NCBI GenBank assembly: GCA_945881915.1
Contig: CAMCVW010000013.1
Location: 1-64,000 of the forward strand
Direction: 5' to 3'
Origin: Thermoflexus hugenholtzii JAD2
Lineage (GTDB): Bacteria > Chloroflexota > Chloroflexia > Chloroflexales > Roseiflexaceae
DNA length: 64,000 nt
Part shown: positions 1,808 through 46,352 of the stretch, piece by piece
How positions within the stretch are numbered: position 1 is the stretch's first letter
How the letters are laid out: each line of letters opens with the position of its first letter
Made by a program: the position numbers and the translations under genes
The notes under the pieces: model-generated
The model's input: the letters and a program-made list of their open reading frames with translations, nothing else
Told to the model about the DNA's origin: nothing
Database searches by the model: none

Positions 1808-3145
1808 TTAATTGTCTTCGTGACGACGATGGCGAATCGCTGGCGGGAGCGATATATCGGGATCGTCTTCGTGGGGCCGACCATTGCTGGGTGGCTGACG
1901 AAAACCGCCTTCGAGCGGTGATTGTCGAGACAGCGGCGGCCGACTCGGTGATGGTTGTTGTTCGGCAGCAGGAATGTATGGTCGACGGGGAGGCACATCT
2001 GCACCGGGCTGGCGCCCTGCCAATGGCCCTGGCCGATCATTCCCGGCGTGTGCTGGCGGGTTGATGGCTGGAGCGGGCGGGACTGCCGGCACCGATGAGC
2101 GCAGTGCAGGAGGGATTTGCGACGGCGTCGGTGCAAGTGTTGCTTGCTCGTGCATAGGTGTTCGTGCAGGCATTTGCGCTTTTGGCCGCATCGAACTAAT
2201 TCCGGATGCGAGGAGGGTGATTTTGACTTGATCGGCCGGAAAATTCGGATCAATGACCGAACCCCAGATGATTTGTGCGTCGTCTGCAACGATTCCTTCG
2301 ACGATGGTCGCAGCTTCTGCGACTTCAGCCATGCGAATGTCTTCGCCGCTGGTGATATTGAGCAGCACGCGTTTGGCACCGCGGATTTCGACATCGAGGA
2401 GGGGCGATTGCATTGCCGATTCGATAGCTTGTTGAATGCGGTTTTCGCCAGATCCAAGACCGATTGCCATCAGTGCTTCACCGGAATTTTTGAGCACCGT
2501 CTGCACATCTGCAAAATCAACATTGACGACACCGGTTTTGGTGATGAGGTCCGAAACACCCTGAATGCCTTGCCGCAAGACGCTATCAGCGATTTGGAAG
2601 CCCTGAATCATCGAAACACCGCGTTTTGCGTAGGCTTCGACGAGTCGGTCATTCGGAACGACGACGAGCGCATCGACATATTGACGCAGCTGTTCAATGC
2701 CTTTTTCTGCTTGTGCAAGACGTTTAGAACCTTCGAATTTGAATGGTTTGGTGACGACTGCGACGGTCAAAATACCCAAGTCTTGGGCAATAGAGGCGAC
2801 AATCGGCGCTGCTCCTGTGCCAGTACCACCGCCCATACCGGCAGTGATGAAGACGAGATTGGAACCTTTGAGGATTTCGTAGAGTTCGTCGTTTGTTTCT
2901 TCGGCGGCACGCTCACCAACCCCGGGGTCACCACCAGCACCCATCCCCCGGGTGAGACGCTCACCAATGCATATTTTGTAGTGTGCGCGTGAGAGCCGGA
3001 GGACTTGTGCATCGGTGTTGATTGCAACAAATTCCACATCCCGGACGCCGTCTTCGATCATTCGGTCGATGGCATTAGAGCCACCACCGCCAACACCAAT
3101 CACGCGAATCACTGCACGCACGCCACGAGGTTGTGAAGAAGTCAT
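1808..3145 (-). CDS. ftsZ: Second FtsZ paralogue, with long Pro-rich C-terminal linker
   Basis: Tubulin-like GTPase of the division ring, 445 residues. The GTP-binding signature GGGTGTG is at residues 105-111 and the T7 catalytic loop NVDFAD at 208-213, so both nucleotide binding and hydrolysis residues are kept. After the globular core (to about residue 320) comes a linker of roughly 100 residues very rich in Pro, Ala, Ser and Arg. The last residues, DISLPPAIRHRRHEDN, are a degenerate version of the conserved C-terminal peptide that binds FtsA. It lies 56 bases after the first ftsZ and is preceded by AAAGGA. Differences from the neighbouring copy in linker and tail suggest a specialised role rather than a recent duplication. 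It is the last gene of the cluster. Confidence 0.95.
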   Translation of the reverse strand: MTSSQPRGVRAVIRVIGVGGGGSNAIDRMIEDGVRDVEFVAINTDAQVLRLSRAHYKICIGERLTRGMGAGGDPGVGERAAEETNDELYEILKGSNLVFITAGMGGGTGTGAAPIVASIAQDLGILTVAVVTKPFKFEGSKRLAQAEKGIEQLRQYVDALVVVPNDRLVEAYAKRGVSMIQGFQIADSVLRQGIQGVSDLITKTGVVNVDFADVQTVLKNSGEALMAIGLGSGENRIQQAIESAMQSPLLDVEIRGAKRVLLNITSGEDIRMAEVAEAATIVEGIVADDAQIIWGSVIDPNFPADQVKITLLASGISSMRPKAQMPARTPMHEQATLAPTPSQIPPALRSSVPAVPPAPAINPPAHAGNDRPGPLAGRQPGADVPPRRPYIPAAEQQPSPSRPPLSRQSPLEGGFRQPPSNGRPHEDDPDISLPPAIRHRRHEDN

Positions 3146-3201: not shown

Positions 3202-4371
3202 TCAGCGATCTTTGTTCCGACGAACAAACACGGGAATATCCACATCAGCCTGTGTGGGGAAGTTGCGCATTGGTTGCGATGGTGTTCGTGCATCACGCTG
3301 CGGTGGCGTGGGCAGCGGAACTGAAGCATCTTGATTGGGTTGCCGTTGCATAGGTGTCGGTGCACGTTGGGGGAGTTGCGTGCGTTGCTCTGCGATGGAG
3401 TCTGATCGACGTTCCCCATCGAACCCCGTTGCAATGAGGGTGACTTTGACTTGGCCCCGTGGGAAATTGGGGTCAATCAGCAAGCCCCAGATGATATTGG
3501 CATTGTGCGCAACGGCTGCTTCGATGACAGAGGCGGCTTCTTGGACTTCGTAGAGGCTGACGTCTTCGCCGCCAGTCACATTGAGCAGCACGCTCCGTGC
3601 GCCAGTGATGGTGACCTCGAGCAGCGGCGACTCTACCGCCTCGCGCACCGCGTCGATCATACGATTGTCACCGCTGCCGATACCAATCGACATCAGAGCA
3701 GTGCCGGAGCGTTGCATCACGGAGCGCACATCGGCGAAATCGACGTTGATGAGCCCAGGCAGATTGATCATGTCGGCGATACCCTGGATACCCTGGCGAA
3801 GCACACCATCGGCCATCTGAAATGCCTGCATCATCGTGGCGTTTTTGTTGCCGGCATGGAGCAGGCGATCGTTCGGTACGATGACGAGTGTATCGACATG
3901 CGGTCGGAGTCGCTCGATGCCTTCTTCGGCGTGCTTGCGGCGATGTTTGCCCTCGAATCCAAACGGTTTGGTGACCACTCCGACGGTCAATATTCCTAAT
4001 TCTTGGGCGATACTGGCCACGATGGGGGCTGCACCGGTACCCGTACCACCACCCATACCCGCAGTGATAAAGACCATATTGGCACCGTGTAGTGCTTCGG
4101 TGAGTTCGATGCGCGATTCTTCGGCGGCTTTTTCACCGATACTGGGGTCACCGCCTGCGCCGAGGCCTTTGGTCAGCTTATCGCCGATGCGGATACGTTT
4201 ATCGGCTTTTGAGTTGACGAGTGCCTGTGCGTCTGTATTGACCGTGATGAATTCGACATTCTGGACACCGTCAGCGACCATGCGGTCGACTGCGTTCGAT
4301 CCACCACCGCCGACACCGATAACCTTGATGACCGCCACGCGCTCATTGATATCTTGTTGGTGACCGAACAT
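3202..4371 (-). CDS. ftsZ: Cell division GTPase FtsZ (canonical copy)
   Basis: The 389-residue tubulin homologue that polymerises at mid-cell. The GTP motif GGGTGTG is at 107-113 and the T7 loop NVDFAD at 209-214. It ends in [12 protein letters not shown], a near-canonical C-terminal peptide of the type recognised by FtsA and other ring tethers. The start ATG follows GGAGG with a 4-base gap. It is separated from ftsA by 185 bases that hold a perfect hairpin and a TATAAT box, so it may be transcribed both from the cluster and from its own promoter. Of the two copies this one most resembles the standard division FtsZ. Confidence 0.96.
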
Positions 4372-12478: not shown

Positions 12479-13231
12479 TCACAGCGCTGGGCCAGACACA
12501 GCGACGATGAGAAAAAGCACTGCTGTGAGACCGATGGTTGCGTTCCAGCCCCACGGAAGCGTGGCACGTAGGCGTACAAGTCCTGACTCGGTTTGTTCTT
12601 CTGTCAGCCGTGGCATCAAGAGAAAACCGGTCACAAGCCCACCAAGCAGTCCACCGATATGTGCCATATTGTCGATATTTGGCATACTGAAACCAAAAAA
12701 TATATTGATAAGAGCGGTGAAGGCAACACTCGCCAAAATTTGTTTGGCGTTTGCGCCATACGCGCTGCGATTCATCCAGACGAACGTCCCCGTGGCTCCT
12801 ATGAGCGCAAAAATCGCTCCCGATGCGCCCACAGACGGATTTGCAGAAAACAAGTATGAGGCGACACCGCCAACAAATCCCCCGATGAAGTAGATTCCCA
12901 GAAAGCGCTTGGTATCACCCATTCGTTCAACAGTTACCCCGATTTGAACAATGGCAAATGAGTTAAAGAGCAGGTGAACAATATTGCCATGCAGGAACAT
13001 CATGGTCAAAAATCGGTAGTATTGGTCGCCAAACGCGATAGCGATGTTGTCTTTGGCGCCATAGATGAGCAGCAATTCAGACACCGCGACCGTTTTGTAC
13101 ACGACACCCAATTGATCGAGCAAATAGGGAACGGCAAAGATAATGACGTTGAGGATGACGATGATTCGTACCATCGGTGATGTCTCGCGCAGAAATCGAT
13201 TTATCGGGGCGGACATTGCTGCGGTGTTCAT
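12479..13231 (-). CDS. Rhomboid family intramembrane serine protease
   Basis: A 250-residue membrane protein with six or seven helices. The rhomboid hallmarks are all present: HGNIVHLLFN (81-90), the nucleophile motif GASGA with S137, and AHIGG with H191 as the catalytic partner. Rhomboids cleave within or near single-pass membrane helices. The ATG overlaps the murD stop as ATGA, and ftsW starts 19 bases downstream, so it is translated as an integral part of the cell-wall operon. Single-pass proteins such as FtsL, FtsQ or FtsI are conceivable substrates, but this is inference. Confidence 0.93.
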   Translation of the reverse strand: MNTAAMSAPINRFLRETSPMVRIIVILNVIIFAVPYLLDQLGVVYKTVAVSELLLIYGAKDNIAIAFGDQYYRFLTMMFLHGNIVHLLFNSFAIVQIGVTVERMGDTKRFLGIYFIGGFVGGVASYLFSANPSVGASGAIFALIGATGTFVWMNRSAYGANAKQILASVAFTALINIFFGFSMPNIDNMAHIGGLLGGLVTGFLLMPRLTEEQTESGLVRLRATLPWGWNATIGLTAVLFLIVAVSGPAL

Positions 13232-14628
13232 TCTGCTGCCTCTTCCTCTAGTATGCGTACGATTCGACGAAATTCTTCGCCGCGATGAAATTCATTGCGA
13301 AACATCCCAAAGCTTGCACAGCCTGGAGAGAGCGCAACGGTCGCCGGTTGAGAAGAGACTGCATGTGCAGCACGAACCGCAGACTCCAGCGAATCGTAGC
13401 TGCCAATGATCTGTTTGGCTGCGCCGTGGCGTACCAGTGCATCGTGGAGCAGTTCGGTCGCGGAACCCTGCAGGAGCACGATGTGGCTTGCATGGCTCAC
13501 TGCGGTGGCAGCGAGTGCCTCGAACGAGAGCTTTTTGTCGGCTCCACCTGCAATCCAGATTATCGGTTGTGGGAGCGAGACTAATGCAGCAATTGCCGCA
13601 TCGGGCATCGTGGCAGCAGTATCGTTGATAAAGACGTGCCCGCTGATGGAAGCGACGACTTCCTGACGATGCTCTACACCCATAAACGACGCCAACGCAG
13701 GAGCAATACGCTCAGGTGGCATACCGGCGCGGAGCGCCAAAGCAACCGCTGTGGCGATATTGGCGCGATTATGCATCCCCGAGAGCTGCACATCAGCCTG
13801 AGTCGCCACAATCACGGTTTTGTGGGCTAGTACTGCATGCAGCGCATCAGCATTCCAATAGACGGATCCGATCGGCGCATCGGGGATGGAAGCGGTAGCA
13901 GACCAGGCAACGGTCCCCGGCATGGTCGGAGCAAGCTCCTGTAATACTGCGTCTCGCGCATTCAGTAGCAGGAAATCGGCAGGTTGCTGGTGCGCGCCGA
14001 TTGCTGCTTTGGCGGCGATATAGGCAGGCATGGTGCCGTACCGATCGAGGTGGTCGGGGTGAATGTTGGTGATGGCCGCAATTGCTGGACTCAGACCTGC
14101 AGCGCCTAAACCTTCGAGCACAAATGATGAGAGTTCGAGCACAACCGGCGTATCAGGGCCGATCAGCGCCAATTGTGCCAACGCCGAAATGCGCATGTTC
14201 CCCGCGAGAATCGTGTCGGAACGCCAGCTTTTGAGCAAGTGGGCAGTCAACGTCGCCGTTGTCGTCTTCCCTTTCGTACCGGTGACGGCGATGATTGGTG
14301 CAGGGCATAAACGAAAGAAGAGCGTCATCTCCATTTCGATCTGGGCACCCGCAGCGCGTGCAATTGCGACGAATGGTGATGTTGCGGGAACTGCAGGGTT
14401 TTGTACCAGGATATCGCAGGTACGAAAGTCGTCGTCGCGGTGTTCGCCGAGAACATAGGTAATTGGCACATCGGCGAGGGCGGCTACGGAGTCCTGCAGC
14501 AAATCTGCGGAGCGCAAATCGGTGACCAGCACACTGGCACCCTGCTCGGCACAATAGCGGGCGACCCCGAGCCCACCACCGTGGACACCGAGGCCCATTA
14601 CGACGATTTTTTTGCCGCGTAGTTGCAT
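13228..14628 (-). CDS. murD: UDP-N-acetylmuramoyl-L-alanine--D-glutamate ligase
   Basis: A 466-residue Mur ligase adding D-Glu to the stem peptide. It has the short MurD-type N-terminal Rossmann start (VVMGLGVHGGGLGVARY), the P-loop VTGTKGKTTTA, NIHPDHLDRYG in the middle domain and INDTAATMPDA plus WIAGGADKKL in the C-terminal domain, the latter a MurD trademark. The ATG at 14628 lies 8 bases after mraY with AGGA upstream. Confidence 0.94.
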   Translation of the reverse strand: MQLRGKKIVVMGLGVHGGGLGVARYCAEQGASVLVTDLRSADLLQDSVAALADVPITYVLGEHRDDDFRTCDILVQNPAVPATSPFVAIARAAGAQIEMEMTLFFRLCPAPIIAVTGTKGKTTTATLTAHLLKSWRSDTILAGNMRISALAQLALIGPDTPVVLELSSFVLEGLGAAGLSPAIAAITNIHPDHLDRYGTMPAYIAAKAAIGAHQQPADFLLLNARDAVLQELAPTMPGTVAWSATASIPDAPIGSVYWNADALHAVLAHKTVIVATQADVQLSGMHNRANIATAVALALRAGMPPERIAPALASFMGVEHRQEVVASISGHVFINDTAATMPDAAIAALVSLPQPIIWIAGGADKKLSFEALAATAVSHASHIVLLQGSATELLHDALVRHGAAKQIIGSYDSLESAVRAAHAVSSQPATVALSPGCASFGMFRNEFHRGEEFRRIVRILEEEAAE

Positions 14629-14636
14629 ACTTCGTC

Positions 14637-15737
14637 CTAGCGTTCTGGCGCTACCACAGCGGGTGGTGCCTGAGTGGCTCGCTGGGCTGTCTGTGCTTCT
14701 TTGTGGAAGGTGAGTGCAAGCGACACGCCCAAAAACGTGGCAATCATGGTAATCATGACGAAGCGTTGCGTAATCTGTGTTTCGCTCCAGCCACCGAGCT
14801 CGAAGTGATGATGTAATGGCGCCATACGAAACAGCCGAACAGGTGTTCCCGTGCGCCACCGCGTGTATTTATAGTAGGCCTTTTGTAGTGCTGACGAAGC
14901 CGCCTCGCCCACAAAGACAACGCCAATGATGGGTAACAAGAGCCATTGCTGCGACTGGAGTGCGATGACTGCGAGCACCGCCCCGAGCGCCATCGAGCCG
15001 AGATCCCCCATAAACACCTGTGCGGGGTGTGCGTTGTACCACAAGAACGCCACACAGGCCCCGACCAGGGTAAAACTCAGTGTCATCAGGTTGGTAAAGT
15101 CTCCACTCAAAAAGGTAATCACGCCGTATGCACCAAATGCAATCGCGAGATTCCACCCAGCCAGGCCATCGAGTCCATCTGTCAGATTGACGGCGTTGCT
15201 CGTCGCCACAATGATGAATGCAGCCAGCGGAAAAAACCAAAAGCCAATATCATATGTGCCGACAAACGGAATGCGTACGAGACCCGAGTTGGCTAAACCG
15301 AATGGTTGGGGTAAGTAGAGAAATAGGCTAATGAGGAGTGCGAGTGCAATCTGAAGGATGAATTTTACGTGCTCACTGAAGCCGTATTGTTCTTTCTTCG
15401 AACGCTCGAGTGATAGATAATCGTCGACCGCACCGAGAATGCCATAGAGCACCAGCGTCACAATGGGCAACAGCATAGACCAGCGATCGACCAAATTGAA
15501 TGCAATCGTCAACAAGACCACCGGTGCAATAATCATCAACCCGCCCATGGTCAGCGTCCCGGTTTTGACGAGATGACTTTGCGGACCATCGACGCGGACG
15601 CGTTTGCCGATGCGGTAGTGACGTAGCACTTTGAGCCAGAAGTAGCCAAAGATGAGCGTAATCACAAATGCACCCGCTGCCAGCAGCAACGCGCGTGACA
15701 TGTCGCGGACTAATAAATTGCGTAATGCCTCTTGCAT
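14637..15737 (-). CDS. mraY: Phospho-MurNAc-pentapeptide transferase, canonical copy
   Basis: A polytopic enzyme of 366 residues that moves phospho-MurNAc-pentapeptide to undecaprenyl phosphate, giving lipid I. The substrate-loop motif reads DGPQSHLVKTGTLTMGG (residues 50 onward) with the conserved Lys at 58. The catalytic AspAsp is in GAVDDYLSL, the third acid in FMGDLGS, and APLHHHFE is intact. It lies 30 bases after a second mraY and ends in TAG. Of the two copies this one fits the family consensus and probably does the essential reaction. Confidence 0.95.
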   Translation of the reverse strand: MQEALRNLLVRDMSRALLLAAGAFVITLIFGYFWLKVLRHYRIGKRVRVDGPQSHLVKTGTLTMGGLMIIAPVVLLTIAFNLVDRWSMLLPIVTLVLYGILGAVDDYLSLERSKKEQYGFSEHVKFILQIALALLISLFLYLPQPFGLANSGLVRIPFVGTYDIGFWFFPLAAFIIVATSNAVNLTDGLDGLAGWNLAIAFGAYGVITFLSGDFTNLMTLSFTLVGACVAFLWYNAHPAQVFMGDLGSMALGAVLAVIALQSQQWLLLPIIGVVFVGEAASSALQKAYYKYTRWRTGTPVRLFRMAPLHHHFELGGWSETQITQRFVMITMIATFLGVSLALTFHKEAQTAQRATQAPPAVVAPER

Positions 15738-15767
15738 ACCGGAGCCTCCAATCGCAAAAAATACGCG

Positions 15768-16799
15768 CTATGCACGCATGGCCAATGCAATGGCAACCAT
15801 TGCAGACGCCATGGTGATGACGACAAATCGCTGGGTAATCTGCGGGTTACTCCAACCAGACATCCGCAAATGGTGATGGAGTGGTGCCATTTTCAGTAAG
15901 CGGACCGGTGTACCGGTGACCCGTCGGGTGTATTTGAAATAGCCAATCTGGATGAATGATGACAACCCTTCCACCACAAAGATGATGCCTATAATTGGGA
16001 GCAGCAACCACTGCTGAGATTGCAGTGCAACGATTGCAAGCACACCCCCAAAAGCCATCGATCCCAAATCACCCATGATGACGGTTGCGGGATGCGCGTT
16101 GTACCACAGATACCCCGCACATGCACCCACGAGGGTGAAACACAACGCCATCAGGTTGGTAAAATCGCCATTCAGAAAAGCAATCACTCCATATGCACCA
16201 AATGCAACCATCAACGTCCAGCCGGACAACCCGTCCACCCCATCGGTGATATTGACCGCATTGACCGTCACCCAAATGATGCATGCCGCAATCGGAATGA
16301 CATAGATTCCCACGTCGAGTGGGCCGATAAATGGGACAAACACCATTCCTGAATGACCGAGTCCGTAGGGAGCGGGCAGATAGAGAATCACACTTGCCAT
16401 GACTGCAATGAGCCATTGCAATGCACCCTTGACGCGCTCGGTGAGACCGTAGGTTTTGGATTGAACCACATCGAGCGAATAATAGTCGTCGACTGCACCG
16501 AGGATCCCATAGCCCAACATCACAGATAACGGAAGTAGCATTGACCATCGATCAATGAGATTGAAAACAATGGTCAACACCACCACAGGAACGATAATCA
16601 TGATGCCACCCATCGTGATTTGTCCATACGAAACCATAGTGTCACTGCCCTCATTGCGGGCACGTTTGCGGATGTTGGCACGTTTAAGCAGTGCAATCCA
16701 GCCACCACCAGTGACGAGCACAATCAGCGCAGCTGCCGCAGCGAGAAGCAGTCCACGTGCCATATCTTGAATGAGGAGTGCGCGTAACGCTTCTTGCAT
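15768..16799 (-). CDS. mraY: MraY paralogue with altered substrate-loop motif
   Basis: A 343-residue paralogue of the next gene; both begin MQEALR. It keeps the catalytic acids (GAVDDYYSL, NITDGVDG, IMGDLGS) and the APLHHHLR motif, so a phosphosugar transfer activity is likely. The normally strict DGPxSHxxKxGTPTMGG loop is changed: residues 50-64 begin EGSDTMVSYGQ, with the conserved Asp, Pro, His and Lys all replaced (Lys becomes S57). In characterised MraY enzymes this Lys lies in the active-site pocket. The copy may use another UDP-sugar or be regulatory. It starts 6 bases after murF. Confidence 0.9.
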   Translation of the reverse strand: MQEALRALLIQDMARGLLLAAAAALIVLVTGGGWIALLKRANIRKRARNEGSDTMVSYGQITMGGIMIIVPVVVLTIVFNLIDRWSMLLPLSVMLGYGILGAVDDYYSLDVVQSKTYGLTERVKGALQWLIAVMASVILYLPAPYGLGHSGMVFVPFIGPLDVGIYVIPIAACIIWVTVNAVNITDGVDGLSGWTLMVAFGAYGVIAFLNGDFTNLMALCFTLVGACAGYLWYNAHPATVIMGDLGSMAFGGVLAIVALQSQQWLLLPIIGIIFVVEGLSSFIQIGYFKYTRRVTGTPVRLLKMAPLHHHLRMSGWSNPQITQRFVVITMASAMVAIALAMRA

Positions 16800-16805
16800 C
16801 GTGTC

Positions 16806-18266
16806 TTACTCCGTCACATCGACGCGAAGTGCCGCGACAATCGATTCCATCGCCATTGCCCGTGATCCTTTTATGAGGATGCAATCAGACGGAGCAAGAA
16901 TCTGGGTGAGCACTGGAATGGCCTCCTCGGTGGTCAGAACCTCGTAGACGGCTGACATCCCGGCGCTGCGCGCGCCTTCGGCGATCCACGTGCCACGTGC
17001 ACCTACCGCCAAAAGCACATCCGCTGCCTGTGCAGTCTGGATGCCGACATCGCGGTGTGCTTGCGCCTCGACGGGACCAAGCTCGCGCATATCACCGAGT
17101 ACCGCGACTCGGCGACGATCAACAGTCGCCAAGAGTTCTAGTGCTGCGCGAACCGATGTCGGTGCAGCATTGTAGGTATCGTCGATGATTTGTGACTGCT
17201 GCACGCCGTCGTAGATCACAAACCGAATGGAAGTGAGTCGATGGAGGATCGTATCGCGCATGGAAGACCAAGACACATGGGCGACGATACCGACTGCGAT
17301 TGCTGCAAGTACGTTGCGCACCTGATGCATACCCGGCGCAGCAATCAGAATCCGCTCGTCGATGCCGGGTGCAACGATACGCACATCGGTGCCGCCGAGC
17401 CCGTGGGTCACGATGTCACATGCGCGGACATCGGCGCTCTCTGCTGTGCCATAGGTGATGACTCGGGCGCTCGTTCGAGTGGCGAATCCAGCGACGATTG
17501 GATCATCTGCATTGAGAATAACCACTCCCGTTGCAGGAATTGCCGCAACCAGTTCTGCCTTGGCATTGGCGATTGCTTCGATACTCCCCATCCGCTCCAA
17601 ATGTGACGGACCGACTGTAGTCACGACGGCAATGTTTGGGTGCGCAATTGTACAGAGCGTGGCAATATCGCCTGGATAGTACATGCCCATTTCAAACACT
17701 GCGGCGCTATGTGACGCAGTCAATCCCAGGGTGACCAGCGGCAATGTCGATTCACTGTTATAACTGCGCGGGGTTTTGAGGGTAGGCATAGCGTCGCTGA
17801 GCAATGCGCCGACGATTTCTTTCGTCGATGTTTTGCCCACACTCCCGGTAATCCCGACAACATACTGCGGTGAATACCGTGCGCGATGCCATGTAGCCCA
17901 ACGGTGCAGCGCTTCTAGTGGATCTGGAACGGCAATGAGCAGGATTCCCTGCCAGTGTGCAGGAGGCTGCTGCCCCAAGCGCACTATCGACCAGCCGTGT
18001 TCTCGGGCGAGTGCTTCTGCCTTCGCTTCTGCCACGACTGCTGCCACGGCACCCCGAGCAGCTGCTGCCTGCACATATGCATGGCCATCGACGGTCATCC
18101 CGACGAGGGCAACGTACAGCGCTCCCGATTCAACGAGACGAGAGTCGATGGTGACGTGCGTTATCGACGTCGAGTGACACTGCCCGACCGCTGCGATGGG
18201 GAGTCGTGATTCGGCAAGTTGCAGACCAATCAAGACCATTGCGAGTGGGTGTGCGCTATTCGCCAT
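16806..18266 (-). CDS. murF: UDP-MurNAc-tripeptide--D-Ala-D-Ala ligase
   Basis: A Mur ligase of 486 residues that adds the D-Ala-D-Ala made by Ddl. Its ATP loop is ITGSVGKTSTKE, followed by YNSESTLPL (a MurF feature) and EMGMYYPGDI; the C-terminal domain holds DDTYNAAPTSV and LGDMRELG. The ATG at 18266 overlaps the end of ftsI by 11 bases. In most dcw clusters murE lies between ftsI and murF; here the two are adjacent and no murE is present in the window. Confidence 0.95.
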   Translation of the reverse strand: MANSAHPLAMVLIGLQLAESRLPIAAVGQCHSTSITHVTIDSRLVESGALYVALVGMTVDGHAYVQAAAARGAVAAVVAEAKAEALAREHGWSIVRLGQQPPAHWQGILLIAVPDPLEALHRWATWHRARYSPQYVVGITGSVGKTSTKEIVGALLSDAMPTLKTPRSYNSESTLPLVTLGLTASHSAAVFEMGMYYPGDIATLCTIAHPNIAVVTTVGPSHLERMGSIEAIANAKAELVAAIPATGVVILNADDPIVAGFATRTSARVITYGTAESADVRACDIVTHGLGGTDVRIVAPGIDERILIAAPGMHQVRNVLAAIAVGIVAHVSWSSMRDTILHRLTSIRFVIYDGVQQSQIIDDTYNAAPTSVRAALELLATVDRRRVAVLGDMRELGPVEAQAHRDVGIQTAQAADVLLAVGARGTWIAEGARSAGMSAVYEVLTTEEAIPVLTQILAPSDCILIKGSRAMAMESIVAALRVDVTE

Positions 18267-20082
18267 AGACCACACCCGCCCGTTGACCGGGACCGACGAG
18301 ATTTTGGTTGGGTGCAATTCGGTCGTAGCGCATCAGTTCGGCGACAATCCTGCGATAGACCGGTAACGCGGTCGCGACACCATATATGTCATCGATGGGG
18401 CGATCGATTTTGACCAAGACTGCATAGTGCGGTGCTTCAAGCGGCGCCATGCCGACCACCGAACCAATCGTCTGCCCGGTGTATCCGCCGTACCCATCCG
18501 GGATGGAGGACGTGCCCGTTTTGGCACCAACGCGAAATCCGGGAACGAGCCACAGGTCATCTGGTTGACGGGCATTGACATAGTGGTTGGCGGATCGCAT
18601 CAACATACCGCGTACTTTGAGTGCTACCGGCGCGCTGATTGGTTGACTCTGGACCACCGGTTCGGTGTCTACACAGCTCCCATCACGATTGCAACGCTTC
18701 TGGACGATGTATGGTTGCATCATCACCCCGTTATTGGCGACGGCTGCAGCCATGCGCACCACTTGGAGTGGCGTGACTGCGATTCCTTGCCCGTACGAAT
18801 TCGTGTTGAGGTTGATGGGGGTGTAATTGGCGCTACCCGGCTGCCAATAGATTCCCGCTGTTTCACCGGGTAATTCGATGCCGGTCATTTTGCCGAAGCC
18901 AAAATCGTCAATGGCGCGGTAGAACACCGATTCGCCCATTTTTTCAGCGAATAACAAGGCACCAATATTGCTCGAGAAGTAGAGCACCCCGCCTGGGGTC
19001 ATGACACCATGTCCCTTGAAGTCGTAGTTGGACAAGTTGTAGTCGTAGCGGCGGATGGTTCCCTCATCAATGACTTGCGTTGTTTCGTCAAAAGCGTTGG
19101 CTTGGAGGCCGGCGGCAACCGTCAAAATTTTGAAGGTGGACCCCGGCTCATAGACCTGTCCGACTGCGGGATTCGTGTTGTAGACCTCTGGTTCGACGTC
19201 GGCATAATCATTCGGGTCAAAATCAGGAAAACTGGCCATGGCGCGAATTGCTCCGGTTTTCACATCCATCACGAGTACCGAGCCGCCAGAAGCACCATGT
19301 ATGTCAATCGCTCTGCTGAGTTGGTCTTCGGCGAGGTGCTGGATGTATGGATCAATCGTCAATTGCACTTGACTGCCGTTGACGGGTTCGATGCGTTGGT
19401 ATGGTCGCGACCAGATGGGCTGTTGGTGAATGTCGACCTCTGCGGTGATGACGCCATCTGCCCCGCGCAACACGTCGTCAAAGCTCGCTTCGACCCCGGC
19501 AATGCCCATCCCATTGAGGTTCGTCGCGCCGATGACGTGGGATGCGAATCGTCCTTGCGGATAGAATCGGTGCGGCTCATAGACAAGGTAGAGGCTTTCT
19601 TGTTTGAATCGCTCGATTTTGTCAGCCTGATCATCCGGCAGCCAACGGGCAATCGGTACCCACGCACGATTCGTGTCGATGAGGAGTGCCAAAATTTTCT
19701 CGGAGGGAATTTTGATAACCTCGCTGATGCGCACGGCGAGATTCGCTGCATCGCCGGGATCGATTTGTGCAGGTACCACGTAGAGTGACCGACGCTCGAC
19801 ATCGACCGCCAAAATATTGCCGAAGCGGTCGACTATCGTGCCACGGCTTGCCACAATGGGGATGCTCTGGTTGACTTCGCTGCTTGCCCGTGCTGCATAC
19901 CCGTTCCGGTCCAGCAGCTGGACATCGGCGAGTTGGAGCGTAATACGTGCCAAAAACGCCATAGCCAAGCCGAATGCCACAAACAATCGCCACGGACTCG
20001 TGGCACTGCTCGGCGCAGCGGGTGTACTGGAGGGTAGACGTTCGTTGCCAGCTACTGCACGGATATCATTTATCAAGCTCAT
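18256..20082 (-). CDS. ftsI: Septal class B penicillin-binding protein (transpeptidase)
   Basis: A bitopic D,D-transpeptidase of 608 residues that crosslinks septal peptidoglycan with FtsW. One membrane helix (about 32-50) precedes the dimerisation domain with ASRGTIVDRFGNILA. The penicillin-binding motifs are STFK (S315-K318), SSN (370-372) and KTG (521-523). There is no C-terminal PASTA domain. The ATG overlaps the ftsL stop as ATGA and the end overlaps murF. Confidence 0.95.
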   Translation of the reverse strand: MSLINDIRAVAGNERLPSSTPAAPSSATSPWRLFVAFGLAMAFLARITLQLADVQLLDRNGYAARASSEVNQSIPIVASRGTIVDRFGNILAVDVERRSLYVVPAQIDPGDAANLAVRISEVIKIPSEKILALLIDTNRAWVPIARWLPDDQADKIERFKQESLYLVYEPHRFYPQGRFASHVIGATNLNGMGIAGVEASFDDVLRGADGVITAEVDIHQQPIWSRPYQRIEPVNGSQVQLTIDPYIQHLAEDQLSRAIDIHGASGGSVLVMDVKTGAIRAMASFPDFDPNDYADVEPEVYNTNPAVGQVYEPGSTFKILTVAAGLQANAFDETTQVIDEGTIRRYDYNLSNYDFKGHGVMTPGGVLYFSSNIGALLFAEKMGESVFYRAIDDFGFGKMTGIELPGETAGIYWQPGSANYTPINLNTNSYGQGIAVTPLQVVRMAAAVANNGVMMQPYIVQKRCNRDGSCVDTEPVVQSQPISAPVALKVRGMLMRSANHYVNARQPDDLWLVPGFRVGAKTGTSSIPDGYGGYTGQTIGSVVGMAPLEAPHYAVLVKIDRPIDDIYGVATALPVYRRIVAELMRYDRIAPNQNLVGPGQRAGVVYGE

Positions 20083-23057: not shown

Positions 23058-26000
23058 CTAGAGTGTCGGTGGCTTACGTCGCCGCAGTATCGACAACGGA
23101 CCAAGTATGCTCAAGCCGTTTTGTGCTTCTTTGAGCTCTGGGTTGAGATTCAGTGCGCGCCGGAACGCGATTTGCGCCTTCTGTGCATTGCCAGTCAACT
23201 TATATGCCCTGCCGAGCAGACAGTGCGAATCGGCATTGCTGTCATCTATCGAAATAGCTCGTTCCATAGCGCTGATTGCCTCTGCGGTAATACCCAGCGT
23301 CATCGCCACAATGGCAAAGCGCTGCAACACGGTGACATCTGCAGGTAAGGTCTTGATGACCTGGGGCAGGAGCGCCGTGCATTCCTCGGGCTTTTTGAGC
23401 AAAATCAGTATCTCGATGAGGCCGATTTTGTGGAGGGCCGCGTGAGGTTCGAGTTCGCACGCAATGCGCTGATGATCGAGTGCAGATTGATATTGTTTGT
23501 CGTGCTGTGCAATCGTCGCCATGCCGACATAGGCTTGCACACAGCGGCGGTCCTGCTTGATGGCAGTCTCGTAGGCGTGGCGTGCTTCATCAGAAGAACC
23601 GAGGTGCCACATTGCTAGACCAAAGCGCCAGAGTACCTCTGCTTTGGTTGGTGCAACGGCCAGGGCGTGTTTGAATTGTTCGAGTGCGGCATCGTACCTC
23701 CCCTGTGCCAAGTTGACATCGCCCATTGCCAAAAAGACTTCCTCGTCACTCTGGAATCGATGTGCAGAGCGTTGGATTTCTTCCGAAACTGGCGCTGCAG
23801 GGGCTTCTTTGGGAGCGACTTTTGCTTCCAATTTGGCAAGTTCGCGATAGTATTGTGCTTTATCACCGCCGAACTGGACTGCACGTCGATAGGATTCGAG
23901 GGCTGCGGGACGATCGCCGCGTTGTTCGTAGAGTTGACCGAGTTCATAGTGCCAACTCGCGTTTTCGGGGTCACGTTGGAGCGCTTGTTCGAGGTTGGTA
24001 ATTGCTTCGTTGATGCGCCCCTGCAATACGAGCAGATGTGACAGCGCATAGAGCGGTTTGGTGCCTTCGGGGTCGAGGGCTGTTGCGCTCAGATATGCGC
24101 TACGGGCGTTGTCGAACATCCCCATCTGTTGACAGACGTCACCGAGGAGCATGTGCCAAGAAACGACTTCGTTCTTGAGTGCGATGGCCGCCATGATGGA
24201 ACTGCGCGATTCGCGGAGCTGGTGGGTTTCGACATAGAGTTTGGCCAATTGGAAGTGGTTATCCGCATTCCCACTATCAAAACGCGTTGCCCGCTGGGCA
24301 GCACTGATTGCGCGGTCGATGCGCTGTTCGGCGAGGTATGCATCGCGCAATGCAGCATTGATGGGACCATTCCCCGGCTGCAACTCATTTGCTCGCTCGA
24401 GCACCGGCGTAGCCTCTTTGAGTGCGCCGCGGTTGAGCAGCAACATCCCATACCACTGTTGGACCACGGCAGTGCCGGGCATACTCGCTGCTGCATGTGC
24501 CAAAGCAGCGAGTGCTTCCTCGAGATTGCCAGCCAAATATGCGATACGGCCGTAGATGTACTGATCATGCATCGACAATGGGGCAACAGCCAACACATAG
24601 CGCATATCGACGAGCGCATCTGCCGCCCGCCCTATCATGGCCAACGAGAGTGCACGCCGTTGCCGAATGTGCGCAGCCAGATCGTTTTTGTTGAGGATGC
24701 TGGCATCATGGGCGTCGCCCGATAGGTGCCGTGGGTGCACATCGCCTTGCAATGCCGCTGCGGCATCGAAGGTCGACACAGCCTCGCTATGGCGCTCCAA
24801 CATCTGCAATACGATGCCGCGCTCGAAGAAGCAGCGTGGGTTGTCACCCTCGATCATCAACGCTCGGTCGAATGCCTGGAGCGCAGCGGTCAATTTGACG
24901 TGGATGTTTGCCGGCTGCGTGACGAATTCTTCAAAGTCCTTGGCCAGCGGTGTCTGTTGACGCAGCGCCATGCCCAAGCACATGTGATAGACAGCCTGGG
25001 TGGGATCTGCGGCTACGGCTGCGGTAAAGACGGGTACTGCATCGTCGACTAATTCAAAATCGAGTAACAGGAGGCCATACATCAGGGCAGAAGGCGCATA
25101 GTCTTTTTCGAGCTCATAGGCGTTACGCGCCGCTGCCAAAGCTTTTTCGTATTCGCCCTGACCACGCAGGACACGTGCAAAAACGCGCCAGTGTTCACTG
25201 ACTTGACCCTGCAAATCGACGGCTCGACGCGCGAGGCTATAGGCTTCGTTCAAGCGACCCTGCGCCAGTGCAACATCTGCGAGGCAAGCAATCGCAGGTG
25301 CTGACGTGGGCATAGCAGTAATAACTCGCTGCAGTTCAGCCTCAGCGGCTTCGTAATCACCTGCCTGGAATGACAGAACGCCCAGTCGGTAGGCAAGATT
25401 CACATCGCTTGGATTGAGGTCAACAGCACGATTCATGCATTGGGCGGCGTTGGTCACATCGTGCACTGCCTCGTAATTGTCTGCCAGTTCGACCCACCAC
25501 TCATACTGCTGGTCACGCAAACGCAATGCAGCAATCATGTGCGGAATTGCCTCACCATCGCGTCCGAGCGTTGTCAGCACGGATGCAAGCTGATGTTGCG
25601 CCTGTGCATCGTCCGGATGGACCGAAACGGCTCGTTCCGCGGCATCAAGCGCACGATCGAGGCTGTCTGCCTCGACCATAATCTGCGACATCAAGGTCAG
25701 TGATTTGACATCATTGCCATCGCGTCGTAACGCTTCGACGATATCCGCCGATGCGTCATCGACTTGATTGTTTCGCAGGAGCAGTTCTGCACGTTTGCGC
25801 CACAACGCTGGGTGATCGCCGGCGATGTCGAGTGCGTGGTCGATTTCGTTGATGGCTTCTTTGTACCAGCCACGTTGAGCATGTACATCTGCCAAATCCG
25901 CACGCCAATGATGTGCATCAGGACGTTGTCTGATGGCTTGTTCGATGGCTGCGACCGCCTGCTTGCTCTCGCCGAGAGCCAGATGTGCCAATCCCAAGGT

Positions 26001-29000
26001 GTGCTGGTACTCGGGCCGATTGCTGAGTGCAACGGCTTTTTTGAGTGCACCGACAGCCTCACGATCGGCACCAGTCTGATGCAAGAGGTGCCCAAGAATG
26101 AATTGCCACGGTGCAAAATCCGGCCGACGAGCCACTGCATTGCGATAACTCGTGACAGCGGCTACCCGCTGGCCGAGGCCGAGTAGTGCATCACCGAGCA
26201 ATGCATGATGCTCCGGGAGGCTCGCATCCGCGTGCACGGCATGCTCTGCGCACTCGCGAGCCTCGGACCAGCGTGTGCTTTTGGCATAGGCTGCACTCAT
26301 ACGGGCGTAGGCCGTACCGCGCAGTGGGTGTCTGGTGTTTTTGGTTGCTGGTGTATTGCGTTCGAGGTCGAGGGCTTGTTGCAACTCAATGATTGCAGCT
26401 TCGGGCACGCCAATGGCAATGAGCACTTCGCCGAGGCGCAAATGGTGTTCTGCGGATTTCGGCGCGAGGGCCACCAGGCGTTGGGCGGCATCTGCGGCGG
26501 TAGAAAAATCATCCGCCAGCATTGCTGCATCGCGTAATCCTGCCAGTACCTCGGGTTGTGATGGGTCAATTTGATTCGCTTGTGCAAACAAATCGCGTGC
26601 TTCGTGATGCCGTTGCACCCCGAGGAAGGCCGAGGCCGTCGCGACGATTGCATCGATGGATTGACTATCGATGTGCAAGGCTGCCCGTGCGACTGATAAT
26701 GCTTCATCGATGAAGCCATGCTGATGCAACGCCCGACTCCGGGTGCTCAACACATCGACGCGTTGCGGGGCGTGTTGTGCAGCAGTGTCGAGCAATTCGA
26801 GCGCTTCGCTGGCGCGGTCGGTCTGCAATCCCATCCGTGCCATCTGAAGGATAACTTCAATATCGGACGAATTGATGAGGTATGCTTTGCGTGCCTGTTC
26901 ATAGGCAAATTCATACCGGCCGTGTTGTGCCATTGACTTTGAATAAGCCAGAAGCGTCGGTGCAGATTCGGGATTTACGCGTATCGCTTGCTCAAACGTG
27001 CTCGTGGCTTCGTCGAATCTTCCCGCACCTGCGAGTGCTTGACCCATCAATTCCAGCGCCAACGGGTTGTTCATGACATCGCTGATGTATTGTGTCGACG
27101 CTATCGCAGGCTTCCATGCACGTTCGGCGATGTGGAGCTGGGCTACCTTGAGCCACGAGGCATCGTCGTGGCGATTTTGCCACAACGCTTTTGCTAAATA
27201 ACTGCGGGCGCGCTTCAGACGGCCTCGGCGCATCGCAAAACCGGCAGCGGTGCGTAACAGGCGAGCGTCGTTCCCGTGGTGAATGAGTGCACGTTGAATC
27301 AGCGCGTCGCCTTGCTCAATCTGGCCTAGATGTTCGAAGACGCCGATTGCGTCGATGAGCAACACAACGTTGTCGCTGTCGATTCCAATTGCTTTGTTAT
27401 AGACCTCCGCTGCCTCGCGGAAGCGACCCACATCGCTCAATGCTTTAGCCATCGTATGCATATGGATACTCTGGTGCGGCGTGAGTGTAATCGCCTTGCG
27501 ATACGTAGCCAATGCAGCATCGTACTCACCACGTTGCCACAACAAGCCGGCGAGGTCACTCTGCAGTTCTGCATCTCCGCTTGCTTGACCAAGTGCAGTC
27601 CGGACGATTTGGACCGCTTCGTCACTTGCTCCATGCGCCTGTAATTGCATGGCGAGGTGGCGCTGCGCCGTGATGCTCTTGGGGGCAATGGCAACGGCCT
27701 TCCGCAATGAGCTGACTGCCGCATCAGAATCACCAACCGCTGCACACGCGCTGCCGAGTGCGATATACAACGCCTCGTCGTTCGGTTGCAGATTCACCGC
27801 TTGTTGCCACGATTGCAATGCTCCAGCGGTATCGCCCTTTGCAGTCCGGACGCGACCCAGTGCTGCGTGGCTGTATGCGTCATGGGGCGACAAGCCAATC
27901 GATTTTTCCAGGTAGTACTGTGCTTTTGCGGTATCGCCACGCTCGAGTGAAACACGACCCAGCGCTGCCAACAACGCCGGTTGATCGCCCAAACGTCCCA
28001 GTGCACCTTGGAGCAGTGCATTGGCATCATCAAAACGTCTCAACGACTCGAGCACCTGGCCTTTGGCACAATACAAACTCGGGTCGTCTTGGACTTCGGC
28101 GAGTGCATGATCAAAAGCCGTCAAAGCGGCGGGGAAGTTCTGCTGCTGCACATAGATTTGCCCCAATTCTTGGGCGACTGTGGCACTTTGGCGCCGATAG
28201 ATGTCAATCAGCGACTGCAACGACTGTGCGGCAGCATCGAGCGATCCGATTTTCCCATATGCGATGCCCAGTTGGGTGCGTGCTTGCAAATCCTCTGGGC
28301 GCAGGGAGCACAATAATTCGTACGCTTGTACCGCCGCTGCCCAGTCACTCTGAGACAGCGCCATTTCGGCAATGCGCCGCACCACATCGACATCTTGGCG
28401 CTGTTCGCCGGCAATACCTTCGAGTTGCGCACGGGCGTGCCCGATTGCCCCTTCCTGTTGCAAAATATCTGCTACCGCGATACGCATGCTGACTGTTTTC
28501 ACACCCGCAGAATGCAGCAACGTATCGACACGGTCTCGTTCACCCCCCTGCAGAACAGCTTTGACTGCCGGGCGAATCAAGCCTAATTCAAACAGGCGGC
28601 GCAACGCCGCTGCCCGATTTTCACTGATATCGACGGCAATAGCCACTGCATCTTCATCGCCCGCGAGTTGCGTCAGACTCCACTCCGCCGGTGGTTGCAG
28701 GATCCATTGTTTGGCGCGCACGACCGAGCGAATCATCGGATGCCGATACGACAATGCCTGCTGTTCATAATCAAAATGGATGATGCCCGCGGAGACCAAT
28801 CCACGCAGCGCCACAATATCTCGCTCCACGGCCGGCGCACCCAAAATCTGCTGCGCCAACGTGGCTGTGTTTTGTCCGCCGATACGGAGCCGCAAGACGA
28901 CGTCCACTAATGCCCAGGTATCGCTCTGCTCACCGAATTGTTGATTCAAACTGACCAATAACTCGAGTGCCGGGACCGCATCGGTATTGCCTGATTCCAA

Positions 29001-29786
29001 GATAGCAGCTAACCACTCCCACATCCAACGACTTCGGAATGTAATCCCGGTGTACGATCCACTGCCCTGCATCGTCAAGAGTGCCGCCAACCAGCGTGGC
29101 CGGCTGGCGAGGGCGAGGACCGCATCGTCTTGTTCAATCTGCTGCGCCACACTGTCTCCGCAGCGAGTTCGCACCATACTGACAATGTCTTTGGGTGAGA
29201 GCGGGCGGAGCGTTCGTACGTCTGCGCTACTAAACCATGGTCGGAACAACGCTAACGCTTCACTCCGACAGGACAACACCCAGCGTGCCTGCGGTCCCAT
29301 TGTGCTCATCAACGCGGCGATATGCGAGAGTGCGGTCAGCTGAACATCCGAAGGTAGTTGTTCCAGACCATCCACAAACAAGACCACCGGCAGACTCGCG
29401 AATTCGCGCCAGGTCGGTGGGGTAGGAACGCTGTAACAATCAACAATTGTCTGTTCGAGAGAATCGCGATACCTGCCGAGGTCGATATACAGCGGCACCA
29501 AGCTCGCTTGTTTGGTTTTGCTGGTACGCCCATCGGCCAACTGTATATCAGCGAGCTGGAGTGCCGTCTGCAACAGACAGCTGCTCTTGCCGGCTCCTGG
29601 TGGTCCGACGACCAGAACGCGGGCGTGTTGATCGAGGACTTGCCGCAACCCGACGGGGTTGCCCCGCGTCCGTTCCGTTCCTTCGTGCGCTAACGACAAC
29701 ATCGGCAGCCCACGCACTGCGCTACTCGCAGGGTGTGCCACCAAGGCGTGAAAATATGTTTTCAGCCATGTCATTGCGTCGTTCAT
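23058..29786 (-). CDS. Giant NACHT-type STAND ATPase with about fifty TPRs
   Basis: A 2242-residue protein. The N-terminal NTPase has Walker A GPPGAGKS (61-68), Walker B VVLFVDGLEQL with D139 and the sensor strand WVLSCRSEAL with R174, the pattern of NACHT/STAND switches. A winged-helix-like region follows (to about 400). The rest, about 1800 residues, is a near-continuous run of 34-residue TPR units (recurring A-LG-A and P-N/D signatures), broken by one spacer near residue 1985 (KVAPKEAPAAPVSEE). STAND proteins couple ligand sensing by repeats to ATP-driven oligomerisation and effector activation. The next gene is a caspase-like TPR protease, the natural effector candidate. The gene sits 6 bases after a small membrane protein, inside the dcw cluster. 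Confidence 0.9.
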   Translation of the reverse strand: MNDAMTWLKTYFHALVAHPASSAVRGLPMLSLAHEGTERTRGNPVGLRQVLDQHARVLVVGPPGAGKSSCLLQTALQLADIQLADGRTSKTKQASLVPLYIDLGRYRDSLEQTIVDCYSVPTPPTWREFASLPVVLFVDGLEQLPSDVQLTALSHIAALMSTMGPQARWVLSCRSEALALFRPWFSSADVRTLRPLSPKDIVSMVRTRCGDSVAQQIEQDDAVLALASRPRWLAALLTMQGSGSYTGITFRSRWMWEWLAAILESGNTDAVPALELLVSLNQQFGEQSDTWALVDVVLRLRIGGQNTATLAQQILGAPAVERDIVALRGLVSAGIIHFDYEQQALSYRHPMIRSVVRAKQWILQPPAEWSLTQLAGDEDAVAIAVDISENRAAALRRLFELGLIRPAVKAVLQGGERDRVDTLLHSAGVKTVSMRIAVADILQQEGAIGHARAQLEGIAGEQRQDVDVVRRIAEMALSQSDWAAAVQAYELLCSLRPEDLQARTQLGIAYGKIGSLDAAAQSLQSLIDIYRRQSATVAQELGQIYVQQQNFPAALTAFDHALAEVQDDPSLYCAKGQVLESLRRFDDANALLQGALGRLGDQPALLAALGRVSLERGDTAKAQYYLEKSIGLSPHDAYSHAALGRVRTAKGDTAGALQSWQQAVNLQPNDEALYIALGSACAAVGDSDAAVSSLRKAVAIAPKSITAQRHLAMQLQAHGASDEAVQIVRTALGQASGDAELQSDLAGLLWQRGEYDAALATYRKAITLTPHQSIHMHTMAKALSDVGRFREAAEVYNKAIGIDSDNVVLLIDAIGVFEHLGQIEQGDALIQRALIHHGNDARLLRTAAGFAMRRGRLKRARSYLAKALWQNRHDDASWLKVAQLHIAERAWKPAIASTQYISDVMNNPLALELMGQALAGAGRFDEATSTFEQAIRVNPESAPTLLAYSKSMAQHGRYEFAYEQARKAYLINSSDIEVILQMARMGLQTDRASEALELLDTAAQHAPQRVDVLSTRSRALHQHGFIDEALSVARAALHIDSQSIDAIVATASAFLGVQRHHEARDLFAQANQIDPSQPEVLAGLRDAAMLADDFSTAADAAQRLVALAPKSAEHHLRLGEVLIAIGVPEAAIIELQQALDLERNTPATKNTRHPLRGTAYARMSAAYAKSTRWSEARECAEHAVHADASLPEHHALLGDALLGLGQRVAAVTSYRNAVARRPDFAPWQFILGHLLHQTGADREAVGALKKAVALSNRPEYQHTLGLAHLALGESKQAVAAIEQAIRQRPDAHHWRADLADVHAQRGWYKEAINEIDHALDIAGDHPALWRKRAELLLRNNQVDDASADIVEALRRDGNDVKSLTLMSQIMVEADSLDRALDAAERAVSVHPDDAQAQHQLASVLTTLGRDGEAIPHMIAALRLRDQQYEWWVELADNYEAVHDVTNAAQCMNRAVDLNPSDVNLAYRLGVLSFQAGDYEAAEAELQRVITAMPTSAPAIACLADVALAQGRLNEAYSLARRAVDLQGQVSEHWRVFARVLRGQGEYEKALAAARNAYELEKDYAPSALMYGLLLLDFELVDDAVPVFTAAVAADPTQAVYHMCLGMALRQQTPLAKDFEEFVTQPANIHVKLTAALQAFDRALMIEGDNPRCFFERGIVLQMLERHSEAVSTFDAAAALQGDVHPRHLSGDAHDASILNKNDLAAHIRQRRALSLAMIGRAADALVDMRYVLAVAPLSMHDQYIYGRIAYLAGNLEEALAALAHAAASMPGTAVVQQWYGMLLLNRGALKEATPVLERANELQPGNGPINAALRDAYLAEQRIDRAISAAQRATRFDSGNADNHFQLAKLYVETHQLRESRSSIMAAIALKNEVVSWHMLLGDVCQQMGMFDNARSAYLSATALDPEGTKPLYALSHLLVLQGRINEAITNLEQALQRDPENASWHYELGQLYEQRGDRPAALESYRRAVQFGGDKAQYYRELAKLEAKVAPKEAPAAPVSEEIQRSAHRFQSDEEVFLAMGDVNLAQGRYDAALEQFKHALAVAPTKAEVLWRFGLAMWHLGSSDEARHAYETAIKQDRRCVQAYVGMATIAQHDKQYQSALDHQRIACELEPHAALHKIGLIEILILLKKPEECTALLPQVIKTLPADVTVLQRFAIVAMTLGITAEAISAMERAISIDDSNADSHCLLGRAYKLTGNAQKAQIAFRRALNLNPELKEAQNGLSILGPLSILRRRKPPTL

Positions 29787-33348: not shown

Positions 33349-34749
33349 TTATGGGATGGTGCACTGCCCTGCGCCGTTTGCCCCCCAGCACACCACACTC
33401 CCGTCTGTCAGCAGCGCCAGTGTATGATTGGACCCCGCGCTGATGGCGATTACTCCCGTAGCGCTCGCTGGCACCGTCGACTGCCCACTCGTGTTGCTGC
33501 CCCAGGCGACTACTGCACCACTCGCCGTCAATGCCACACTATGGGATGCCCCGGCACTGACGGCGCTGACGCCCACCGCAGTCGTCGGTACTGTGCCCAA
33601 CCCGGCAGCAGAATTACCCCACGTACGGACGCTGCCATCCTGTAATACCGCCAACGAATGATTGGTACCCGCTGCAATTGCCGCAACGACTCCGAGATCT
33701 GTGGGGATACTCACCTGCCCGTAACTGTCGTCGCCCCATCCGCGCACCGTCCCGTCACGACACAACGCCAACGAATGGTTAGCCCCTGCAGCGATTGCCT
33801 GGACCGAACACAAATCAGATGGGATGGTGGTTTGGCCATATTCGTTATCACCCTGTCCAAAAACGATCCCAAATTTATTTAGTTTAAGTGTGAATAACCC
33901 CCCTGCGCTAACTTGTGTGATGTTTTGGTTATTAGCTGAATCAAAAGTCAATTGATCGTAATCATTGTCTCCCCACCCAATCACCGTCCCATCGGCGAGC
34001 AGCCCCAAAGAATGATTCTGGGCAGCGGCGACGGCGACAATAGCTATTGCAGAGGTTGGAACGGTTGCTTGCCCATACGTGTTGCTCCCCCAACCTGCCC
34101 AACTTCCATTCCGGTACGCAATCGAGTGACTCAATCCAGCAGCGATCCGCACCGCTACAATTGTCGGTGTGCTTGTTGCCGTCGGCGTGCCAGACGGCGT
34201 ACGGGTTAGTGTGCTTGTTGCCGTCGGCGTGTCGGACGGCGTGTTGGTAAGCGTGCTTGTTGCCGTCGGCGTGCCGGACGGCGTGTCAGTTAGTGTGCTT
34301 GTTGCCGTCGGCGTGCCAGTCGGCGTACTTGTTGCCGTCGGCGTGCCGGACGGCGTACTTGTTGCCGTCGGCGTGCCAGACGGCGTACGGGTTAGCGTGC
34401 GTGTTGCCGTCGGCGTGACGGACGGCGTACGGGTGAGTGTGCTCGTTGCCGTCGGCGTACCAGACGGCGTACGGGTGAGCGTGCGTGATTTGGTAATCGC
34501 TTTGGTGGCAGCGCGGGTTTTGGTGCGTGATTTGGCAATTGCTTTTGTAGCGGTACGTGTTTTGGTGCGCTTCCGGGTAGGGGTGGAGCGTTTTTTTATG
34601 GAAGGACGGAGCGGTGTGGGCGTCGCCGTGTATGTCGGATGTGACGCATCACGTGCGAGCGACATCGCAGCGGTAGGGAGTGCCGGGGTTCGCATAGTCA
34701 TGTACCAGATGCACGCCAAAAGGAGCACGAATGAGAGGAATCGACGCAT
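33349..34749 (-). CDS. Secreted RCC1-repeat protein with Thr/Pro-rich stalk
   Basis: 466 residues. A signal peptide or N-terminal anchor ([14 protein letters not shown]) is followed by a basic segment rich in Lys, Arg and Thr, then a low-complexity stalk of TPTATST-type repeats (about 90-195) and about six RCC1-like units ([36 protein letters not shown] and similar), which should form a beta-propeller. The stalk looks like a glycosylated cell-surface linker. GGAGG lies before the ATG and a consensus promoter is about 115 bases upstream. The ligand is unknown. It is convergent with moaC, 55 bases apart. Confidence 0.85.
34168..34487 (-). repeat. Tandem repeats coding for the Thr/Pro-rich stalk
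   Basis: Near-identical units of 42 bases (14 codons, [14 protein letters not shown]) mixed with shorter 24- and 30-base versions. Identity is high at third positions as well, which points to recent expansion by slippage or recombination. Copy number probably varies between strains. Confidence 0.85.
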
Positions 34750-40424: not shown

Positions 40425-40431
40425 AGGTTTC

Positions 40432-46201: not shown

Positions 46202-46352
46202 AGTGGCCTCCTATTCCAGTTTTTTAACCATATCATTGTGGTGCGCGGCTATTTTTGGAATTTATGACAAAAGCCCCGTACCCCACTCGTTCAGGCTGAG
46301 TATACGCCCGAATATTCTTTGCTACAATACGTCGTATATCAAGAAGGTACGT

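Follow-up and report, generated by a model that had tools for sequence, protein, structure and literature searches.

A tandem mraY paralogue with a rebuilt nucleotide side and an intact catalytic centre in one genus of Chloroflexota

The dcw cluster of the window, by which we mean the whole 64,000-nucleotide stretch of DNA analysed, contains two head-to-tail mraY paralogues that are 61% identical and flanked by murF and murD. The upstream gene, copy A (15768..16799, minus strand; 343 aa), as defined by its reading frame, family score, and alignment, has a rebuilt nucleotide side around an intact catalytic centre. The downstream gene, copy B (14637..15737, minus strand; 366 aa), follows after 30 nt and encodes a canonical-type MraY. 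Judging from its sequence, copy A is an MraY paralogue by descent and is likely to serve another function alongside the ordinary MraY. Tentatively, and well short of certainty, we prefer to see copy A as a non-equivalent partner subunit of MraY in which the nucleotide site might have degraded. MraY, an essential enzyme and antibiotic target, has been examined as a homodimer, and what the dimer does is still under debate. We regard the pair as a new version within a known enzyme family, not as a new kind; we recognised no paper on the mraY pair of this genus in the open-access literature, which is not proof of absence.

The tandem pair, its operon, and its origin

Both reading frames lie on the minus strand within 14637-16799, as the preliminary description had proposed for a tandem of mraY genes, and both pass the cut-off of the NCBIfam mraY family (TIGR00445, 192.05 bits) with 225 bits for copy A and 256 bits for copy B. 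Copy A stays below the cut-offs of WecA (TIGR02380; 47.7 against 326 bits) and of the pseudomurein-type MraY (NF053644; 82.5 against 450 bits). The gene murF (16806..18317, minus) ends 6 nt upstream of copy A, and the murD reading frame (13228..14859, minus) has its own start probably near 14628. Because the gaps between murF and copy A and between the two copies are only 6 nt and 30 nt, the sequence suggests co-translation. In minus-strand order, the dcw cluster runs from mraZ and mraW over several other reading frames, an ftsL-like gene, a pbp2/ftsI-type gene, and murF to copies A and B, and continues with murD, a rhomboid protease gene, ftsW, murG, murC, murB (named from its translation), a D-Ala-D-Ala ligase gene, ftsQ, ftsA, and two ftsZ genes. 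The source genome (3.09 Mb in 63 contigs), from an uncultured genus of Chloroflexales type that probably belongs to the Roseiflexaceae, has a single clear copy each of murE and murG, and therefore no duplicated downstream pathway; neither a dedicated glycosyltransferase nor a flippase is found beside copy A in the neighbourhood from murF to murD. Nothing in this setting supports the suggestion that copy A handles a lipid-linked precursor of another envelope polymer.

Elsewhere in the window, two very large reading frames on the minus strand (23058-29786 and 56062-63774) encode 2242 and 2570 aa, the former full of tetratricopeptide-like repeats as judged by eye, and the product of 33349-34749 (minus) is an RCC1-repeat protein that contains a long low-complexity segment rich in Thr and Pro. 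A selA-type gene (PF03841) occupies 40375-41778 on the plus strand, and downstream of it are two reading frames related to parts of 46092-48116. The selA-type gene and its neighbours up to 48116 could form a selenocysteine system, yet no tRNA was found within the 64-kb window, where no RNA family reached its gathering threshold either.

An orthologue of copy A is present in all 11 genomes of the genus, and copy B lies on the same contig in nine of them. The last 115 residues of copy A stand directly before copy B on a short contig in G006, and the second copy of G008 is visible only as a 100-residue fragment. Elsewhere in the family, a lone mraY was found in 14 of the 15 remaining genomes (partial in G022), and G014 has none at threshold. 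In the class, 149 of 158 genomes match at 1e-35; two matches outside the genus occur only in G083, G097, and G098, and no tandem mraY was seen outside the genus among the 158. An even draw of 251 genomes from the phylum gave 164 with a match, four of them with two matches, one being the window's own genome. Both neighbours are visible at 35 of 37 loci outside the genus (a few from the same genome), and all 35 read murF, one mraY, and murD. The idea that a changed loop is a generic trait of extra mraY copies was rejected, as the Lys and the DGPQxH motif of the ordinary loop are retained in the three copies examined, the two of G097 and one from G098.

A maximum-likelihood tree of 53 rows (11 copies A, 10 copies B, 24 single-copy relatives from the order, and eight other Chloroflexota) recovered the clades of copy A (100/100), copy B (100/98), and both together (99/96), with stems of 0.60 changes per site for A and 0.24 for B. 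Since the two are sister clades, and each remains a single clade in separate trees of the N- and C-terminal halves, the phylogeny indicates that mraY was duplicated in tandem once, no later than the base of the genus, after which copy A changed faster. Gene conversion across the pair was rejected on the half-protein trees, and horizontal gain of copy A was rejected on its sister position to copy B. Codon models, run on nine (or eight) full A and B pairs and on eight of the 24 relatives with two values per run, gave omega values of 0.038–0.041 for copy A (nine genes), 0.021–0.022 for copy B (nine genes), and 0.036–0.037 for the single-copy relatives (eight genes), all of which are rough because synonymous distances are saturated for many pairs. 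When G003 was left out, the values were 0.035–0.038 for A and 0.020–0.021 for B. By these estimates, copy A is plainly constrained and under strong purifying selection.

Changed and kept residues of copy A

We counted changes in the column numbering of Aquifex aeolicus MraY against 114 reference rows, comprising 10 copies B, the 24 single-copy order relatives, and 80 rows from a scan that favoured A-like sequences. Dropped before counting were the copy A fragments L117 and L122 and the copy B duplicate L122 (all from G006) and the partial L128 of G022; the truncated A rows L012 and L013 were kept in the residue counts and in the 53-row tree and excluded from the half-protein trees and the codon sets. 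Of 63 columns conserved to at least 90% in the reference, 11 are changed in every A row reaching them: P64, H67 (deleted), K70, T73, P74, L195, A199, F251, F262, F327, and E328. When copy B was taken out of the reference, 12 of 60 conserved columns were changed in copy A, against two of 60 (P74 and K319) in all B rows, and the excess in copy A is by these counts more than chance. P74 is changed in both copies and therefore not special to copy A. Copy B itself has no Pro74 in any of its 10 genus rows, and 103 of the 104 other reference rows retain it.

The substrate loop of copy A (residues 45-62; 16614..16667, minus) is rewritten, and its His is deleted. Lys70, present in 114 of 114 reference rows, is Ser in 10 and Gly in one of the 11 A rows, and is Ser57 in the window's copy A (16629-16631, minus); H67 is deleted and P64 lost in 11/11, the Pro having become Ser52 in the window. 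All three losses agree with the preliminary description, which had also listed the replacement of Asp50 by Glu. The Glu is present, but it occurs at this column in 11 of the 24 single-copy order relatives and in 23 of the 80 wider MraYs and is not specific to copy A. The loop changes are real, but that description had missed those at Leu195, Phe262, Phe327, Glu328, and Gln260. Leu195 has become Val or Ile. Phe262, the uracil-stacking residue according to an excerpt of PMC6606608, is Ile in 11/11 A rows (Ile241 in the window; 16077..16079, minus), a state found also in five of the 80 wider MraYs. The HHH motif is kept and followed by Leu-Arg in place of Phe327-Glu328 (15864..15878, minus) in all nine rows that reach these positions. 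T73Q and F251Y are fixed in 11/11. Asp65, Tyr71, Gln73, Tyr251, and Ile262 are the same in all A rows, Leu327, Arg328, and Asn334 are fixed in the nine rows reaching them, and six of the changed columns have a single new state throughout.

The catalytic residues D117, D118, K133, N190, D193, and D265 are kept in 11/11 A rows and H324-H326 in 9/9 (two rows are truncated), confirming in the alignment that copy A retains the catalytic Asp residues and HHH; D117/D118 correspond to Asp104-Asp105 of copy A (16485..16490, minus). None of these nine residues is changed, against 11 of 63 columns overall, which is weak evidence either way (p = 0.16). An excerpt of PMC5039524 lists eight catalytically important residues for Bacillus subtilis MraY, the loop Lys not being on that list; by our mapping the eight are among, or equivalent to, the nine checked here, and all are kept in copy A. 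The middle His of the motif is not universal, as HNH replaces HHH in 11 of the 24 single-copy relatives (L014-L021 and others).

The uracil pocket of A. aeolicus MraY consists of K70, G194, L195, D196, and F262 in the excerpt of PMC6606608, and three of these five columns (K70, L195, and F262) are changed in all A rows, leaving G194 and D196 (hypergeometric p = 0.034, post hoc). For DPAGT1, an excerpt of PMC6218659 describes the first cytoplasmic loop as the rear wall of the active site and a Phe as the stacking partner of the uracil. An altered acceptor or donor had been proposed for copy A. Because the altered residues belong to the nucleotide pocket, they favour a changed or weakened donor site and disfavour the lipid acceptor as the primary change. 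Copy A thus has the catalytic residues of MraY and a phylogenetic position inside MraY as the sister of copy B, which resembles ordinary MraY, but it has lost the K, H, and P of the DGPxxHxxK loop (11/11), and its uracil pocket is changed at three of five positions. Because these two defining sequence features are not preserved, we do not file copy A as a functional phospho-MurNAc-pentapeptide transferase.

The replacement loop is identical in nine of the 11 genus genomes, has two changes in G009 (L010), and is rewritten differently in G003 (L011), still without Lys, Pro, and His. Of the 23 positions from 43 to 65, 21 are invariant across eight complete A genes, compared with 68% of positions overall, and 17 of 319 equal-sized segments are as invariant. 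Between G003 and the rest of the genus, identity in the core loop is only 39% for copy A and 83% for copy B, and the G003 copy A has lost four further conserved residues. According to the alignment, the loss of Lys and His is old and fixed, and the replacement loop is strongly conserved across most of the genus, with G003, its most divergent member, as the exception. Random drift in orthologues had been named as the sign of decay; with an omega of about 0.04 and a conserved altered motif, the genus overall is not decaying at these positions, and drift is apparent, in part, only in G003.

Possible roles of copy A

AlphaFold2, run on the target with 46 other sequences (the window and 45 of the 80 scan loci), gave a mean pLDDT of 89.4 for copy A, with residues 52-57 below 50, and of 91.8 for copy B, with none below 50. 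The copy A model matched solved MraYs with Z-scores of 34 to 43 (up to 42.6) and DPAGT1 with about 30. The fold is thus predicted to be unchanged, with an uncertain loop. In the dimer of A. aeolicus MraY, a carrier lipid sits between W253/F254/Q260 of one subunit and L332/K336/R340 of the other; Q260A lost the co-purified C55-P and R340A lost most of the dimer (PMC9046198, in excerpt). Position 260 of copy A is Pro in six and Thr in five of 11 rows, both states occurring in none of the 114 reference rows, while W253 is kept in 11/11 and R340 in the 9/9 rows reaching it. Gln occupies position 336 in both copies and in the relatives, and this position does not discriminate. With Q260 lost and R340 kept, an A:B dimer, if formed, would carry one complete and one altered lipid site.

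Our preference for the partner role comes mainly from this pattern of single residues, in which half of the interface lipid site is changed and the other half is kept. After the duplication at or before the genus base, copy A would have been retained by purifying selection. It might still bind Mg2+ and undecaprenyl phosphate, and might bind UDP-MurNAc-pentapeptide poorly or not at all. Copy A could then pair with copy B into an asymmetric MraY dimer of non-equivalent partners, in which it would tune or stabilise copy B according to the supply of carrier lipid. The genus-wide tandem in place of a single gene, the single clear murE and murG, and the Q260/R340 pattern speak for such a partner. 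Against it, the nine kept catalytic residues would be needless for a pure partner (the weak p = 0.16 applies), the six columns with one new state fit a new activity equally well, and the A. aeolicus residues given in an excerpt of PMC10914600 are not specially conserved in copy A or between A and B.

The same cluster holds a second pair, ftsZ1 (3202..4371, minus) and its fast-evolving partner ftsZ2 (1808..3145, minus), whose C-terminal peptide is unlike the DIPxFLRN/R-type ending of relatives. The tandem ftsZ is found in 10 of the 11 genus genomes, with none found in G001 (60% complete), and within the family only in this genus; of the 15 other family genomes, 13 have one ftsZ, a single gene is split into two pieces in G018, and none was found in G022. 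The genus's two ftsZ clades (98 and 100) were joined at 86 in a quick tree, which is below the star of the tool, and their stems were 0.35 and 0.80. Six second ftsZ genes fetched from another family of the order are located on different contigs or at a great distance, and in the tree they sit elsewhere, on long branches. Two cell-wall and division genes that have both diverged into a slow and a fast copy within this genus suggest a changed division apparatus; the two cases are parallels, and any link between them would be hypothetical. The boldest version of the partner reading is one to which we give little credence: an obligate asymmetric MraY heterodimer throughout the genus, in which copy A would keep the metal and carrier-lipid sites, be blind to UDP-MurNAc-pentapeptide, and gate copy B by carrier-lipid supply, in step with FtsZ, which would likewise have divided into two non-equivalent subunits within this gene cluster. 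For the partner reading at large, a natural pair in which one subunit retained catalysis while its nucleotide pocket and one half of the interface lipid site were altered would open the roles of the dimer and the loop lysine to direct tests.

Alternatively, copy A might be active as a phosphosugar transferase within this superfamily, with another sugar nucleotide as its donor while still using undecaprenyl phosphate, which we consider somewhat improbable. The kept catalytic residues beside three changed uracil-pocket columns, the fixed T73Q, F251Y, F262I, F327L, and E328R, and the invariance of the loop would all suit a new donor. No sugar-nucleotide or dedicated glycosyltransferase gene was recognised in the operon, however, and the core loop of the G003 copy A agrees poorly with the others (39%, against 83% for its copy B). 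To our knowledge, moreover, all characterised members of the superfamily use UDP donors. If copy A were an altered transferase, it would reveal which few residues decide donor choice.

It is unlikely, though conceivable, that copy A is still a lipid I synthase, an isoenzyme whose affinity for the substrate is altered or which is less sensitive to uridine-type antibiotics. Such an isoenzyme would agree with its score above the mraY equivalog cut-off (225 against 192 bits), with the retention of the eight B. subtilis residues, which do not include the loop Lys in the list of PMC5039524, and with the Ile at F262 in some wider MraYs. In the excerpt of PMC6606608, the side chain of K70 is disordered in two inhibitor complexes, and nucleoside inhibitors make contact with the residues that are changed in copy A. 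Opposed to this are the invariance of K70 in the reference, the canonical loops of independent extra copies (both in G097, one in G098), and the annotated genes of the window, among which no antibiotic gene cluster was recognised.

Decay of the duplicate, which the faster evolution of copy A and the further losses in G003 might suggest, was rejected as very improbable on the omega values, which are similar to those of single-copy relatives, and on the reading frames, which are free of internal stops in all 11 genomes (two copies being truncated by contig ends), with the catalytic residues intact. An assembly artefact or contamination, conceivable because the genus is known here from draft genomes only, has a negligible chance, given that the same arrangement appears in separate assemblies of different species, that both genes share a contig in nine of 11 genomes with the end of A just before B in G006, and that the pair diverges with the species.

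Relation to known systems

The closest known counterparts of copy A are the solved MraYs (PDB 4J72, 5CKR, and 8G01), with which it shares the modelled fold, the catalytic residues, the operon position, and an above-cut-off score, and from which it differs at K70, H67, P64, T73, L195, F262, F327, E328, and Q260 and in the low-confidence loop 52-57 of its model. The DPAGT1/WecA/TagO branch has the same fold (Z about 30 for DPAGT1), but copy A, unlike that branch, falls inside MraY, and its WecA score is 47.7 against 326 bits. Planctopirus limnophila likewise carries two mraY genes in one bacterium, mraY1 and mraY2, both of which are deletable there according to an excerpt of PMC10632474. The lipid II feedback at the MraY dimer interface, which the excerpt of PMC10914600 describes for one homodimer and no paralogue, shows that this interface controls activity.
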